Positions 5,976 to 13,295 of a stretch of 47,898 nucleotides of DNA are shown here, piece after piece (the stretch's first letter is position 1; the number at the start of each line of letters is the position of its first letter). Below the pieces are notes generated by a model. The model searched no databases and was not told the origin of the DNA. It worked only from the letters and a program-made list of their open reading frames with translations. The position numbers and the translations under genes were made by a program. Source of the DNA: an uncultured Saprospiraceae bacterium (GTDB taxonomy: Bacteria > Bacteroidota > Bacteroidia > Chitinophagales > Saprospiraceae); the NCBI GenBank assembly GCA_937923485.1, contig CALDUE010000017.1, positions 1 through 47,898 of the forward strand. Reading direction: 5' to 3'.

Positions 5976-8171
5976 ATGGTCGCAACAAGCGCGAATCTTC
6001 ACGAAGCACTACAAGAATTCTTTGGCTTTGATTCCTTTAAAGAAAAACAAGAAGAAATCTGTAAATCGGTCTTAAAAGGCCAAGACACATTTGTCATCAT
6101 GCCTACGGGTGGAGGCAAGAGCATGTGCTACCAACTTCCAGCACTGATGATGGAAGGTACTGCCATCGTTATCAGTCCACTCATCGCTCTGATGAAAAAC
6201 CAAGTCGATGCCATCCGTGGCTTCGGGCAGGATGATGCGGTAGCTCACTACCTCAACTCTTCACTAACTAAAGTGCAAACACGCACGGTTCGCGAGGATA
6301 TCCGAGCAGGCAAGACCAAGCTGCTTTATGTAGCTCCGGAGACCTTGACAAAAGAGGAGAACATCGAGTTTTTCAAAAACACCAATATTTCTTTCGTCGC
6401 CGTCGATGAGGCCCACTGTATTTCAGAGTGGGGACACGATTTCCGTCCAGAATATCGACGTATTCGCCTGATGCTCGACGATATCAACAAAACGATACCT
6501 GTCGTTGCGCTAACCGCAACGGCAACGCCAAAGGTGCAGAGTGATATCGTCAAGAACCTCAACATGAGGGACGAGGCGATTTACATAACGAGTTTCAACC
6601 GAACCAATCTTCACTATGAAGTACGTTCAAAAGGCAACAAGGAAAACACGTTCCGCTCGATCATCCAATACGTTACAAGTACGAAAGGGGCTTGCGGAAT
6701 CATCTACGTGCAAAGTCGCAAGAGTACAGAGGAAATAGCCAGTGCACTTGCCGTCAATGGCGTACGTGCTATGCCCTACCACGCTGGACTTGATGCCAAG
6801 ACACGTTCTCGTACGCAGGACATGTTTATCAAAGACGACAGTGACGTAATTGTCGCTACCATCGCTTTCGGTATGGGAATCGACAAGCCGAATGTGCGCT
6901 TCGTCATTCACTACGATATCCCAAAGTCAATCGAGAATTACTACCAGGAAACAGGTCGAGCTGGTCGTGATGGCATCAATTCCGATTGTATTGCCTACTA
7001 CAATTACAAGGACATTCTTCGCTTGGAGAAATTCCTACGTGACAAGCCCGTTGCTGAGCGTGAGCTTGGCCGCCAGCTTATCCAAGAAGTGACTGCATAC
7101 TCTGAGACTGCTGCTTGCCGTCGCCGCTTCCTTCTTCACTATTTTGGAGAGGACTACGGTAAGGAGAGTTGCGATCTTTGTGACAACTGCGTCAACCCGA
7201 AGCCACGCAAAGAGGTGCAAACAGAAATGCACCAAGCACTTTCTGCGATTAAGGAGTTGGATGAGAATTACACCATTAAGACGTACGTAGACTTTGTCAT
7301 GGGCAAAGCGACCAAGGAAATGAAGGATTTCCGCTTTGATCAGCGTCCTTTATATGGTGTAGGCAAAGCGCACGACGATAACTTCTGGATGAGTGTGTTC
7401 CGTCAAGCCATACTTAGCGATTTGGTATTTAAAGACATCGAAACCTACGGTCAACTCTCGGTTACAGAGAAAGGGCAAAGCTTTATCGATAATCCGTACA
7501 GCCTCACAATTGCGCTGAATCACGAATTCGATAGTTCAGATGCGAATCCAGATCCACAGCCTGCACGAGCGGTTGCGCTAGACGCCGATCTACGAGCCAT
7601 GCTTCAGAGCCTTCGCAAGAAAGTGGCTGATGAAAAGGACCTACCACCATATGTCATCTTCCAAGACCCAAGTCTTGATGATATGGCCACGCAATACCCT
7701 ATATCCATTGAGGATATGGCCAAAATTTCTGGCGTCAGCGTTGGAAAAGCGAAGCGATATGGTAAGCCTTTCATGGAGTTGATTGCAAAATATGTTGACG
7801 ATAATGACATCGACCGTCCAACGGATTTCGTCGTCAAACAAGTCGCCAACAAGAGCCGTTCGAAGGTTCAGATCATTCAGGGCATCGATAAAAAGATGGG
7901 CCTCGACGAGATTGCTGAGGTCGTAAAAATGTCAATGGATGAGTTCCTCGACGAGCTGTATGCCATCGTCCATTCAGGAACCAAGGTCAACATCGATTAC
8001 TATCTCGAAGAAGAACTCGACGAGTACACTGCAGACGATTTGAAGGAGTACTTCATGGAAGCAGAAACCGATGATCCTGAAGTTGCTTTCAAGGAGCTTC
8101 ATGAAGACGACATCACCATGGATGAAATTCGTCTCTACCGCATCAAGTTCTTAAGCGACGTAGCGAATTAG
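5976..8171 (+). CDS. recQ: ATP-dependent DNA helicase RecQ
   Basis: 3'-5' superfamily 2 helicase acting in recombination repair and replication-fork maintenance. The helicase core has Walker A MPTGGGKSMCYQLPAL (about residue 42), the DEAH box AVDEAHCISEWGHDFRPEYRR (about 144), and motif VI QETGRAGRDG. Next come the RecQ zinc-binding cysteines in CRRRFLLHYFG...CDLCDNC (about 381-405), a winged helix, an HRDC domain (about 535-610) and a C-terminal helix-turn-helix region typical of Bacteroidota RecQ. I prefer the ATG at 5976 (MVATSANLHEALQ), giving 731 residues. The frame extends 16 codons upstream to 5928 with little family likeness. It is monocistronic, followed at once by a terminator. Confidence 0.96.
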   Translation: MVATSANLHEALQEFFGFDSFKEKQEEICKSVLKGQDTFVIMPTGGGKSMCYQLPALMMEGTAIVISPLIALMKNQVDAIRGFGQDDAVAHYLNSSLTKVQTRTVREDIRAGKTKLLYVAPETLTKEENIEFFKNTNISFVAVDEAHCISEWGHDFRPEYRRIRLMLDDINKTIPVVALTATATPKVQSDIVKNLNMRDEAIYITSFNRTNLHYEVRSKGNKENTFRSIIQYVTSTKGACGIIYVQSRKSTEEIASALAVNGVRAMPYHAGLDAKTRSRTQDMFIKDDSDVIVATIAFGMGIDKPNVRFVIHYDIPKSIENYYQETGRAGRDGINSDCIAYYNYKDILRLEKFLRDKPVAERELGRQLIQEVTAYSETAACRRRFLLHYFGEDYGKESCDLCDNCVNPKPRKEVQTEMHQALSAIKELDENYTIKTYVDFVMGKATKEMKDFRFDQRPLYGVGKAHDDNFWMSVFRQAILSDLVFKDIETYGQLSVTEKGQSFIDNPYSLTIALNHEFDSSDANPDPQPARAVALDADLRAMLQSLRKKVADEKDLPPYVIFQDPSLDDMATQYPISIEDMAKISGVSVGKAKRYGKPFMELIAKYVDDNDIDRPTDFVVKQVANKSRSKVQIIQGIDKKMGLDEIAEVVKMSMDEFLDELYAIVHSGTKVNIDYYLEEELDEYTADDLKEYFMEAETDDPEVAFKELHEDDITMDEIRLYRIKFLSDVAN

Positions 8172-10779: not shown

Positions 10780-12039
10780 ATGGAAGAAATCATCACAGCA
10801 TTCGACTATCCTTACGCTTGGCGTGCGCTGGCTGCCAGTGTTATGGTTGGATTGATGTGTGGTGCGCTTGGTTGCTTCATCGTCTTGCGCAACATGTCGA
10901 TGGTTGGCGATGCCTTGAGCCACGCCATTCTGCCTGGTGTCGTCGTGGCATTCATGGTGGTTGGCGGATATTCTGCCTTGGGCTTTTTCCTCGGGTCGGT
11001 AGCAGCAGGACTTGTCACTGCGGTGCTTATCACTTGGATTCAGCAGAAAGTCGCCACCAAAAATGATGCTGCCATTGGCATTGTCTTTACGACCATGTTC
11101 GCTCTTGGGGTCATGGGGATTTCATGGCTCAGTAAGAACGAGCATGCACATATTGATCTCAAGGACTTCCTCTTTGGCAATGTGCTTGGCGTATCAGATA
11201 GTGACCTGGTACTTACGGGAATGATTTGCCTGTATGTGCTTGCGAGTTTATACGTGTTTTACCGTCCACTCTTCGCTACGACTTTCCAGCCTGTAATTGC
11301 CGAAACGATGGGCGTCAACACGAAGTTGGTGCACTACTTCTTGATGCTCTTGCTTTCGTTTGCGGTTGTTGCTGCCTTGCAAACTGTAGGCGTCATCCTC
11401 GTAGTTGCTATGCTCATTACTCCAGCAGCAACAGGTCTTCTCCTGTCTCGGAGATTGCCAAAAGTGATCATGATTGCCTCGCTAGTTGGTGTGCTTGCGG
11501 CAGTATTTGGGCTGGCCATTGCCTTCGCATTCAAGACGACTCCTGGTCCAGCAATGGCAGTGATGGCGAGTTTCTTGTACGGCTTAGCAGTATTCTTCGC
11601 GCCCGAACGCGGATTGGTGTTTAGGTTCTACCGCAAGCGTACTCGCGAACGTCGCATTGAAATTGAAGATGTTATCAAACAGGGCGCTCGATTAGAGCAG
11701 AATGGGGCTATGACAATCGATGGCTTGGTCGAGAAGACAGTTTTGCCGAAAGGCGTTGTAACGTCAAGATTGAAAACCCTTGCCAAGCGAGGATTGGTCA
11801 CCCTGCAACCGCTGGCCATGACCAATCTTGGCAAGCTTGAAGCCTTCAAACTTGTGCGTGCACACCGCCTATATGAGACCTTCTTGGTCGATCGCCTCGG
11901 TCTCAGCGAAGATCAAATCCACGATGAAGCTGAGCGCTACGAGCACCTGCTTACCGATGAACTGCTTGATGAAATCGATCAGGAATTGGGGTATCCAGAG
12001 ACGGATCCACATGGTAGTCCGATTCCTAAGCGGGGGTAA
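10780..12039 (+). CDS. Metal ABC transporter permease fused to a DtxR/MntR-like regulator
   Basis: The N-terminal part (about residues 10-275) is an ABC-3 family permease for Mn/Zn/Fe uptake, with about eight helices and the conserved NMSMVGDALSHAILPGV loop. The C-terminal part adds a winged helix (about 290-355) and an iron-dependent-repressor dimerisation/metal-binding domain. The latter shows RAHRLYETFLVDRLG, DEAERYEHLL and a terminal YPETDPHGSPIP, as in MntR/IdeR. The fusion is known in Bacteroidota and could let cytoplasmic metal feed back on transport or transcription (inference). No ATPase or binding protein is adjacent; a matching pair lacking a permease lies at 26.8-28.6 kb. It contains one GTTTT-GNRA hairpin (11740). 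Confidence 0.9.
   Translation: MEEIITAFDYPYAWRALAASVMVGLMCGALGCFIVLRNMSMVGDALSHAILPGVVVAFMVVGGYSALGFFLGSVAAGLVTAVLITWIQQKVATKNDAAIGIVFTTMFALGVMGISWLSKNEHAHIDLKDFLFGNVLGVSDSDLVLTGMICLYVLASLYVFYRPLFATTFQPVIAETMGVNTKLVHYFLMLLLSFAVVAALQTVGVILVVAMLITPAATGLLLSRRLPKVIMIASLVGVLAAVFGLAIAFAFKTTPGPAMAVMASFLYGLAVFFAPERGLVFRFYRKRTRERRIEIEDVIKQGARLEQNGAMTIDGLVEKTVLPKGVVTSRLKTLAKRGLVTLQPLAMTNLGKLEAFKLVRAHRLYETFLVDRLGLSEDQIHDEAERYEHLLTDELLDEIDQELGYPETDPHGSPIPKRG
11740..11754 (+). repeat. GTTTT-GNRA hairpin copy, GCC/GGC stem
   Basis: GTTTT-GCC-GAAA-GGC, fully paired. Sense in the permease/DtxR gene, reading TVLPKGV within the winged helix. Confidence 0.85.
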
Positions 12040-12185
12040 AAGGAGTACGATGACCGCTTCGCTGCAAGACCGTTGCACTGCTAGAGCGCTTCGCTGCTAG
12101 ACAGGGTGGAATGTGTCCAGTATTTGACCTGTGCTTAAGCTCACTCTTGATGAAGTGGTGTAAGTCGAAACTCTAGCGCGAGGTT
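12040..12185. other. Non-coding stretch before the tandem repeat
   Basis: Between the permease gene and the 350-bp repeat I see no gene. It contains the 11-mer CGCTTCGCTGC twice (12055-12065 and 12087-12097). Confidence 0.5.
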
Positions 12186-12233
12186 GTATTTCGCCGAAAT
12201 ACGAACAAGGGATTTACGCTCACAAATCCCCAG

Positions 12234-12281
12234 CTAATCCTCGTTCTTCAACACATCGAATACTTCACGGAGACGGTACAT
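12234..12281 (-). pseudogene. Decayed copy 1 of the rbfA 3' end
   Basis: The reverse strand reads MYRLREVFDVLKNED-stop. The intact rbfA at its end reads MYRLREVFDELKEEKKDGDAKT-stop. Identity fades just upstream (LLEM versus LDEM), so only the last 18 or so codons were copied, and they have a shorter tail. There is no start site of its own; it is a remnant of duplication, not a gene. Confidence 0.75.
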
Positions 12282-12317
12282 TTCAAGGAGGCAACGGACG
12301 CTTTAGCACAAAAAAAG

Positions 12318-12347
12318 AAGGCCCTTATGATTGCTCAAAAGGGCCTT
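12318..12347 (-). terminator. Intrinsic terminator in repeat unit 1
   Basis: On the minus strand, AAGGCCCTT and AAGGGCCTT pair into a 9-bp stem with a 12-base loop, followed by C and seven T (plus-strand A run at 12310-12316). It is identical to the copy in unit 2. Confidence 0.8.
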
Positions 12348-12584
12348 TCTAACCAAAATCAGTCTCCGCTGTAAGGGTGTTTCGCAGGGCGACTTTCTGG
12401 GAAAGAAGCCGCCTGTTTCCTGCGAAATACAACCTTAAGACGCACTAGGTGACCTAAGGTCACAATTTTGAATTGATAATTTCGATTTTTGAATGGCTTT
12501 AAGGACGCTCTATAAGGACGCCCATTCGAGACGTGTGTATTTCGCCGAAATACGAACAAGGGATCTACGTTCACAAATCCCCAG

Positions 12585-12632
12585 CTAATCCTCGTTCTTC
12601 AACATATTGAATACTTCACGGAGACCGTACAT
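12585..12632 (-). pseudogene. Decayed copy 2 of the rbfA 3' end
   Basis: The reverse strand reads MYGLREVFNMLKNED-stop, a second copy of the rbfA tail with more substitutions than copy 1 (Gly for Arg, Asn-Met for Asp-Val). The stop is at the same codon as in copy 1 and seven codons earlier than in intact rbfA. It lies upstream of the unit's shared palindromes, in the same order as in unit 1. Confidence 0.75.
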
Positions 12633-12668
12633 CTCAAGGAGGAAACGGACGCTTTAGCACAAAAAAAG

Positions 12669-12698
12669 AAGGCCCTTATGATTGCTCAAAAGGGCCTT
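12669..12698 (-). terminator. Intrinsic terminator in repeat unit 2, nearest to rbfA
   Basis: Same 9-bp stem and T-run as in unit 1 (plus-strand A run at 12661-12667). It lies about 215 bases after the rbfA stop and is the most likely end of the rbfA transcript. Confidence 0.8.
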
Positions 12699-12914
12699 TC
12701 TAACCAAAATCAGTCTCCGTTGTAAGGGTTTTCGCAGGGCGACTTTCTGGGAAAGAAGCCGCCTGTTTCCTGCGAAATACAACCTTATGACGCACTAGGT
12801 GACCTAAGGTCACAATTTTGAATTGATAATTTCGATTTTTGAATGGCTTTAAGGACGCTCTATAAGGACGCCCATTCGAGACGTGTGTATTTCGCCGAAA
12901 TACGAATAAGCTTG

Positions 12915-13295
12915 CTACGTCTTTGCGTCGCCGTCCTTCTTCTCCTCCTTCAACTCATCGAAAACCTCACGGAGGCGGTACATCTCATCGAGTGTGTCGT
13001 CGAGGTAGAACTGGAGGTCAGGTATTCGGCGGACGTGCTTGCGCAAACGAAAGCCCAAGGACTGTCGGATACGAGCGTACTCGTCTTCTAGCTTTAGAAT
13101 AACTGATTGCTTGTCCTCGGTTCCGAAGACAGAAAGGTAGACACGTGCTATTCCGAGGTCTGAAGTCATTTGAACTTCGGTGACCGTTACAAAAGCAGCC
13201 GAGCCGTAGATGTAGCTCCCTTCGGCTTGGAGTACTACCCCAACATTGCGGCGTACGAGTTCTCCGACTTGCTCTTGTCTGATGCTGGTAGCCAT
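12915..13295 (-). CDS. rbfA: Ribosome-binding factor A
   Basis: Binds free 30S subunits and assists 16S rRNA 5'-end maturation, especially in the cold. The 126-residue protein from the ATG at 13295 (MATSIRQEQVGELVRRNVG) has the KH-fold RbfA plan. It includes VTVTEVQMTSDLGIARVYLSVFG and the basic RLRKHVRRIPDLQFYLDDTLDEMYRL near the C-terminus. The frame is open 8 codons upstream to 13319, but the N-terminus there is atypical. The final EEKKDGDAKT tail is charged and differs from the shorter NED ending kept in the two decayed tail copies downstream. The divergent gene is recG. Confidence 0.93.
   Translation of the reverse strand: MATSIRQEQVGELVRRNVGVVLQAEGSYIYGSAAFVTVTEVQMTSDLGIARVYLSVFGTEDKQSVILKLEDEYARIRQSLGFRLRKHVRRIPDLQFYLDDTLDEMYRLREVFDELKEEKKDGDAKT

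Follow-up and report, generated by a model that had tools for sequence, protein, structure and literature searches.

A tandem repeat downstream of rbfA in a Saprospiraceae bacterium is probably a two-gene array of a multicopy small-RNA family

The two repeat units that follow rbfA in the window (the whole stretch of DNA that was analysed, 47,898 nucleotides from an uncultured Saprospiraceae bacterium) probably form an array of two small-RNA genes that belong to a multicopy family; pieces of rbfA hitchhike in it, and it would be driven by an ECF sigma factor under membrane or osmotic stress. Each unit is a predicted promoter-RNA-terminator cassette on the minus strand. The case is built on the alignment of the RNA copies, on a second array elsewhere in the same genome (G000) and on the only other genome of the genus that was compared (G001).

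Repeat units, rbfA fragments and the predicted RNA

The repeats lie between rbfA and a gene of the metal-ABC-transporter type that ends at 12039. Direct-repeat comparison pairs 12185-12381 with 12536-12732 (95% identical) and 12380-12570 with 12730-12920 (97%) at a spacing of 350-351. This bears out the description, in an earlier note on this DNA, of two 350-bp units each carrying a decayed rbfA 3' end: the units are 95-97% identical, and the common terminator and hairpin set that it reported is present in both, nearly unchanged. The note had overlooked the promoter-RNA-terminator make-up of each unit, a third palindrome copy after rbfA at 12887 and the related cassettes, free of rbfA sequence, elsewhere in the genome. 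The palindrome at the unit edges, as GTATTTCGCCGAAATAC(GAACAA), also occurs in a 49-bp tandem array on contig C145 of the same genome (L012:1382-1551). Stretches of AATTTTGAATT are dispersed repeats in the window's genome, and AATTTTGAATTGRTAATTT-type stretches, which occur in the unit spacer, are dispersed across both genomes (L010, L011, L013, L017, L036-L038).

The rbfA-like part of each unit is a 51-mer in register with the true tail of the gene at 12942-12992 (78% identical). The two 51-mers translate as LLEMYRLREVFDVLKNED and LLEMYGLREVFNMLKNED, the real end of RbfA being LDEMYRLREVFDELKEEKKDGDAKT, each followed by a stop. Both fragments end LKNED-stop, whereas intact rbfA ends EEKKDGDAKT-stop. 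That the fragments derive from rbfA is supported by similarity scores of 58-66 against a null maximum of 38 in 2000 shuffles, and each of the five fragments in the two genomes outscores every shuffle against the 3' end of one or both rbfA genes. RbfA of the sister genome ends EEKKDGDAKKKDGDAKK, a tail of the EEKKDGDAK type as in the window; since both genomes have the same type, it predates their split and is ancestral in the genus. The LKNED ending belongs to the decayed copies, not to rbfA. The sister tail is internally duplicated, with KKDGDAK twice (L034, near 6798-6840), a duplication that the rbfA of the window lacks.

Read in the sense of transcription, the aligned copies consist of TGTGACC, 15 nt and CGTC, then a hairpin of ~65 nt, then a stretch, CGGAGACTGATTTTGGTTAG, that is nearly invariant among them, and finally an intrinsic terminator. 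In the first alignment of the copies TGTGACC and CGTC were invariant and at fixed spacing, and the 20-nt core of the RNA is invariant as well; every full copy has both the promoter-like motif, with two changes in one copy, and the terminator. An ECF sigma factor promoter combines a -35 of the AAC/GAC type with a -10 that contains CGT, and TGTGACC-N15-CGTC has the look of one. Both RNA copies of the window fold better than shuffles (Table 1). Among 12 copies from the two genomes, both sides changed at 13 of 34 pairs against 5.7 after shuffling (0 of 500 shuffles scored as high), although several copies are near-identical, so that the effective sample is small and the covariation rests mainly on the paralogues of the second array. 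Paired cells amounted to 91.9% and fell to 36-54% once the pairing was slid (about 50% at one column); most of the covariation lies in the inner helix and in the stem of the terminator. Compensatory changes and indels of 1 nt speak against a coding function, and no ORF is conserved in the RNA.

Table 1. Positions of the features of the array, with one other element elsewhere in the window's genome
Feature	Position	Strand	Basis
rbfA, intact, 126 aa, tail EEKKDGDAKT	12915..13295	-	Pfam PF02033 2.2e-21; G001 orthologue 97% identical
Palindrome GTATTTCGCCGAAATAC after rbfA, dispersed repeat in the window's genome	12887..12903	.	
Tandem unit, rbfA-proximal	12536..12886	-	direct-repeat comparison
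Predicted ECF-sigma-type promoter of RNA copy 2, TGTGACC-N15-CGTC	12789..12814	-	copy alignment, pattern search
Predicted small RNA copy 2	12662..12788	-	fold z -3.62, covariation, CM match
Hairpin, RNA copy 2	12724..12786	-	
Core, RNA copy 2	12700..12719	-	
Terminator hairpin, RNA copy 2	12669..12698	-	
T-run, RNA copy 2	12662..12668	-	
Decayed rbfA 3'-end fragment A (MYGLREVFNMLKNED-stop)	12591..12641	-	repeat comparison, translation, shuffle test
Palindrome GTATTTCGCCGAAATAC, unit edge	12537..12553	.	
Tandem unit, rbfA-distal	12185..12535	-	direct-repeat comparison
Predicted ECF-sigma-type promoter of RNA copy 1	12439..12464	-	copy alignment, pattern search
Predicted small RNA copy 1	12311..12438	-	fold z -3.52, covariation, CM match
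Hairpin, RNA copy 1	12373..12436	-	
Core, RNA copy 1	12349..12368	-	
Terminator hairpin (plus T-run), RNA copy 1	12318..12347	-	
Decayed rbfA 3'-end fragment B (MYRLREVFDVLKNED-stop)	12240..12290	-	repeat comparison, translation, shuffle test
Palindrome GTATTTCGCCGAAATAC, distal array edge	12186..12202	.	
ATTTGGTTYATTTGGTTAGGG element, window's genome (L192)	G000:C87:5214-5277		family loci L187-L216

The second array, the sister genome and rival readings

Contig C70 of the window's genome carries the rbfA-free part of the unit another four or five times, between genes that their translations name as PLP-dependent-decarboxylase-like and Xaa-Pro-aminopeptidase-like. This second array has four copies, none with rbfA sequence and each with its own promoter motif, that run in the opposite direction from the aminopeptidase gene. 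At its far end lies a fifth, divergent copy (L009:7974-8093, 49.8 bits), possibly a diverged family member, with a weaker counterpart at C200:22856-22973 of the sister genome (31 bits). Good copies number six in the window's genome and seven in G001 (full or nearly full, plus one cut by a contig end); the RNA is multicopy in the sense of at least two highly similar genes per genome.

Both arrays stand at the same genes in the sister genome. There rbfA leads directly into an RNA copy, which is followed by a fragment-bearing unit and the end of the contig; the other side of the array lies at the end of contig C248, adjoining the transporter gene, so that the contigs break inside the array. Identity between the species falls from 97-98% in the RNA to 91% in the spacer and about 60% in the rbfA fragments, a gradient which indicates that selection acts on the RNA. 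Within a species the spacers are 100% identical and the fragments 92-93%; the units are thus homogenised within each genome while the rbfA fragments drift. The earlier proposal of an unequal (tandem) duplication that carried the rbfA end together with the terminator is supported by this pattern. The four copies of the second array are mostly 1:1 orthologous between the species, by tree and by terminator type. Intact rbfA runs into the unit palindrome and spacer in the window and into an RNA copy in G001: either recombination of the rbfA tail with a fragment cost the lineage of the window an rbfA-proximal copy, or the sister lineage gained one.

The RNA has so far been met in two draft genomes of one genus. 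No Rfam covariance model reached its gathering score on it; the best match (E 0.017) is a terminator-like match to ctRNA and lies below the gathering score of that family. The exact core was found in a public genome collection only in contigs of the sister MAG (uncultured Saprospiraceae, CALDTK01), and two models (R1 and R2), run on 199-398 genomes of the family and 396 of the order, found the RNA in this genus only. The weak R1 matches outside the genus that were inspected (L062, L063) look like ordinary terminators. Terminators of several Saprospiraceae genera have in common a loop that contains GAGCAATC (L062, L063 and the terminator hairpin of copy 1 in the window), and this loop gave rise to weak model matches outside the genus. 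Two other identities were set aside: a mobile element, given that plasmids and viral contigs gave no match and that the RNA sits at only two syntenic loci, and an integron attC site, on its anatomy (a terminator with a T-run and no adjacent integrase).

A tandem intergenic repeat without a product, terminator- or REP-like, mobile or selfish and placed after rbfA by chance, would account for the dispersal of the edge palindrome and of the AATTTTGAATT stretches in the window's genome. We think it unlikely, because the RNA part is confined to the two syntenic arrays and outlasts spacer and fragment between the species, and because it shows covariation, keeps its promoter motif unchanged and has an unvarying single-stranded core for which a terminator has no use. 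It is less probable still that hairpin and terminator are a mere 3'-UTR or terminator module of rbfA and of the neighbour of the second array. The nearest terminator downstream of rbfA does sit in the first unit, and in G001 an RNA copy begins right after the gene, but the second array points away from its aminopeptidase neighbour with four copies that each have a promoter motif, and termination needs no serial terminators.

The weakest reading, proposed by the earlier note on the strength of the frame MYxLREVFxxLKNED-stop kept with a different tail in both window units, was that these are relics of an exchanged rbfA end, rbfA having gained a new tail later, or donors for switching the RbfA C-terminus; it is largely refuted and now very improbable, given the ancestral tail of the sister rbfA, fragments that decay fastest within the unit (they differ by about 40% between the species, and one sister copy is frameshifted), four further RNA copies at a locus without rbfA sequence, a conserved unit part that is the RNA gene, and no RbfA with an alternative tail in the one relative of the genus that was checked.

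Promoter motif, candidate regulon and possible targets

The promoter motif has 11 matches in the window's genome, the six RNA copies and five others, and each of these five stands, correctly oriented, 31-98 nt ahead of an ORF. They precede the gene of an ECF sigma factor (Sigma70_r2 4.8e-18) with a PF05552 channel-type gene downstream of it, an MscS channel gene, the gene of a protein with three PF05552 stretches, the gene of an OmpA-family protein, and one further ORF; PF05552 or MscS proteins are thus encoded at three of the five loci. The motif is conserved in G001 at the orthologous ECF sigma and MscS genes, a third match there being inside an ORF, and in both genomes the RNA copies and the ECF gene share TGTGACC-N15-CGTC upstream. 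Genome-wide the motif numbered 11 against 6, and 8 against 3, for the reversed control with the RNA copies included, and showed no clear enrichment once these were set aside. Since the totals are not clearly above the control, the case rests on position, orthology and a common functional theme. Taken together, the sequences suggest a membrane-stress regulon of ECF sigma factor, channel genes and RNA arrays, and we infer that the RNA is under the control of the candidate sigma factor. The best NCBIfam match of this protein is NF007222 (SigX); its 111 bits are below the cut-off of 194 bits, and we therefore do not call it SigX.

The invariant core suggests action by base pairing or by protein binding. 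As a genome-wide class, 14-mers complementary to it were not enriched over the reversed pattern, with 36 against 22 in the window's genome (6 RNA copies included) and 35 against 40 in G001 (7 RNA copies included). A single lead to a candidate target is the leader of a tyrosine-recombinase gene (Phage_int_SAM_4), which has AACCAAAATCARTC just 5' of the start (G000:C197 and G001:C326; L103, L138): the complement of the core matches at 14 of 14 positions in the window's genome and 13 of 14 in G001, and the remaining leader is unalignable. For pairing with the core, the ECF leader of the window's genome took second place out of 119, at a site that overlaps the likely transcription start. Feedback of the RNA on the ECF mRNA was tested and found no support, 30 ECF leaders of the family having no excess for the related family-wide core (combined p 0.60).

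On the reading that we favour, a cassette of ECF-type promoter and RNA of about 125 nt (long hairpin, single-stranded core CGGAGACUGAUUUUGGUUAG, intrinsic terminator) would have been multiplied by a duplication that set in within the 3' part of rbfA and reached past the RNA terminator. Recombination between units since then would keep the copies alike in each genome while the rbfA pieces decay. The ECF sigma factor would drive its own operon and membrane-channel genes and, triggered by membrane or osmotic stress, switch on all RNA copies together, and the core could then act on other transcripts, either through base pairing or by offering a binding site for a protein. Sequence comparison shows the anatomy of the cassette, the covariation, the second array, the conservation and the source of the rbfA pieces, while transcription, control by the ECF factor and mode of action are inferred.

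A second element may be connected with this system. In about ten genera, including that of the window, the homologue of the ECF gene is preceded by an element of 60 nt, ATTTGGTTYATTTGGTTAGGG, with a covarying GAGGTA...TACCTC terminator behind it. A model of the element found it in 60 of 99 Saprospiraceae genera, mostly as one strong match per genome, often near an ECF gene and elsewhere in other genomes; none of the ten loci compared with Rfam had a match up to E 1. Directly 5' of the terminator it shares TTTGGTTAG with the window RNA, a likeness that may be homology or convergence. It is tempting to speculate, though we hold it doubtful, that a regulatory-RNA system linked to an ECF sigma factor for membrane stress and to mechanosensitive channels is conserved in Saprospiraceae, with a mostly single-copy RNA (AUUUGGUUAG core and terminator) often near the sigma gene across the family, and in this genus an expanded multicopy branch that has this core, multiplies by tandem duplication and takes rbfA pieces with it.

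Significance and relation to known systems

If real, the RNA would add a new family of small RNAs to a little-studied family of the Bacteroidota, and the candidate regulon of ECF sigma factor, mechanosensitive channels and RNA arrays would become testable. A literature search found no papers that pair Saprospiraceae with small RNA or sRNA. The array also holds a caution: gene fragments beside a gene may be by-products of the duplication of a neighbouring RNA gene and not alternative ends of the gene itself.

The enterobacterial sRNAs MicA, RybB and MicL are under an envelope-stress ECF sigma factor (sigma-E); the RNA of the window belongs to another phylum, and here it is only the promoter motif that points to ECF control. 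We know of no multicopy sRNA in the Pseudomonas SigX network. The candidate sigma factor resembles that network in its link to MscS-type channels, its SigX score being below the cut-off; two papers on SigX and cmaX-cfrX-cmpX link the ECF sigma factor to MscS-type channel genes (PMC7641640, PMC10965496).

Nearer in phylum is FopS of Bacteroides, a 14-member family of paralogous sRNAs that represses SusC-type mRNAs near the start codon (PMC11697453). The likeness lies in multiple copies, a Bacteroidota host, a conserved single-stranded seed and an intrinsic terminator. However, FopS has a single-stranded 5' seed and terminator and canonical sigma-ABfr promoters (PMC11697453), whereas the window RNA has a long 5' hairpin before the core, ECF-like promoters and two tandem arrays; it also has no match in Rfam, in which the FopS structure is stated to be deposited (PMC11697453).

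In arrangement, the array is like the sibling sRNAs OmrA/OmrB, PrrF1/PrrF2 and AbcR1/AbcR2, near-identical tandem genes for which duplication is presumed, how such siblings arise being a matter of speculation according to a review (PMC4211561); a sequence relation to the window RNA is not expected. Sibling sRNAs are thus a known kind, in which the family described here appears to be new. What sets the array of the window apart is that its duplication is marked by pieces of the adjacent protein gene that stayed behind, and these rbfA fragments record the origin and homogenisation of tandem sibling sRNA genes.
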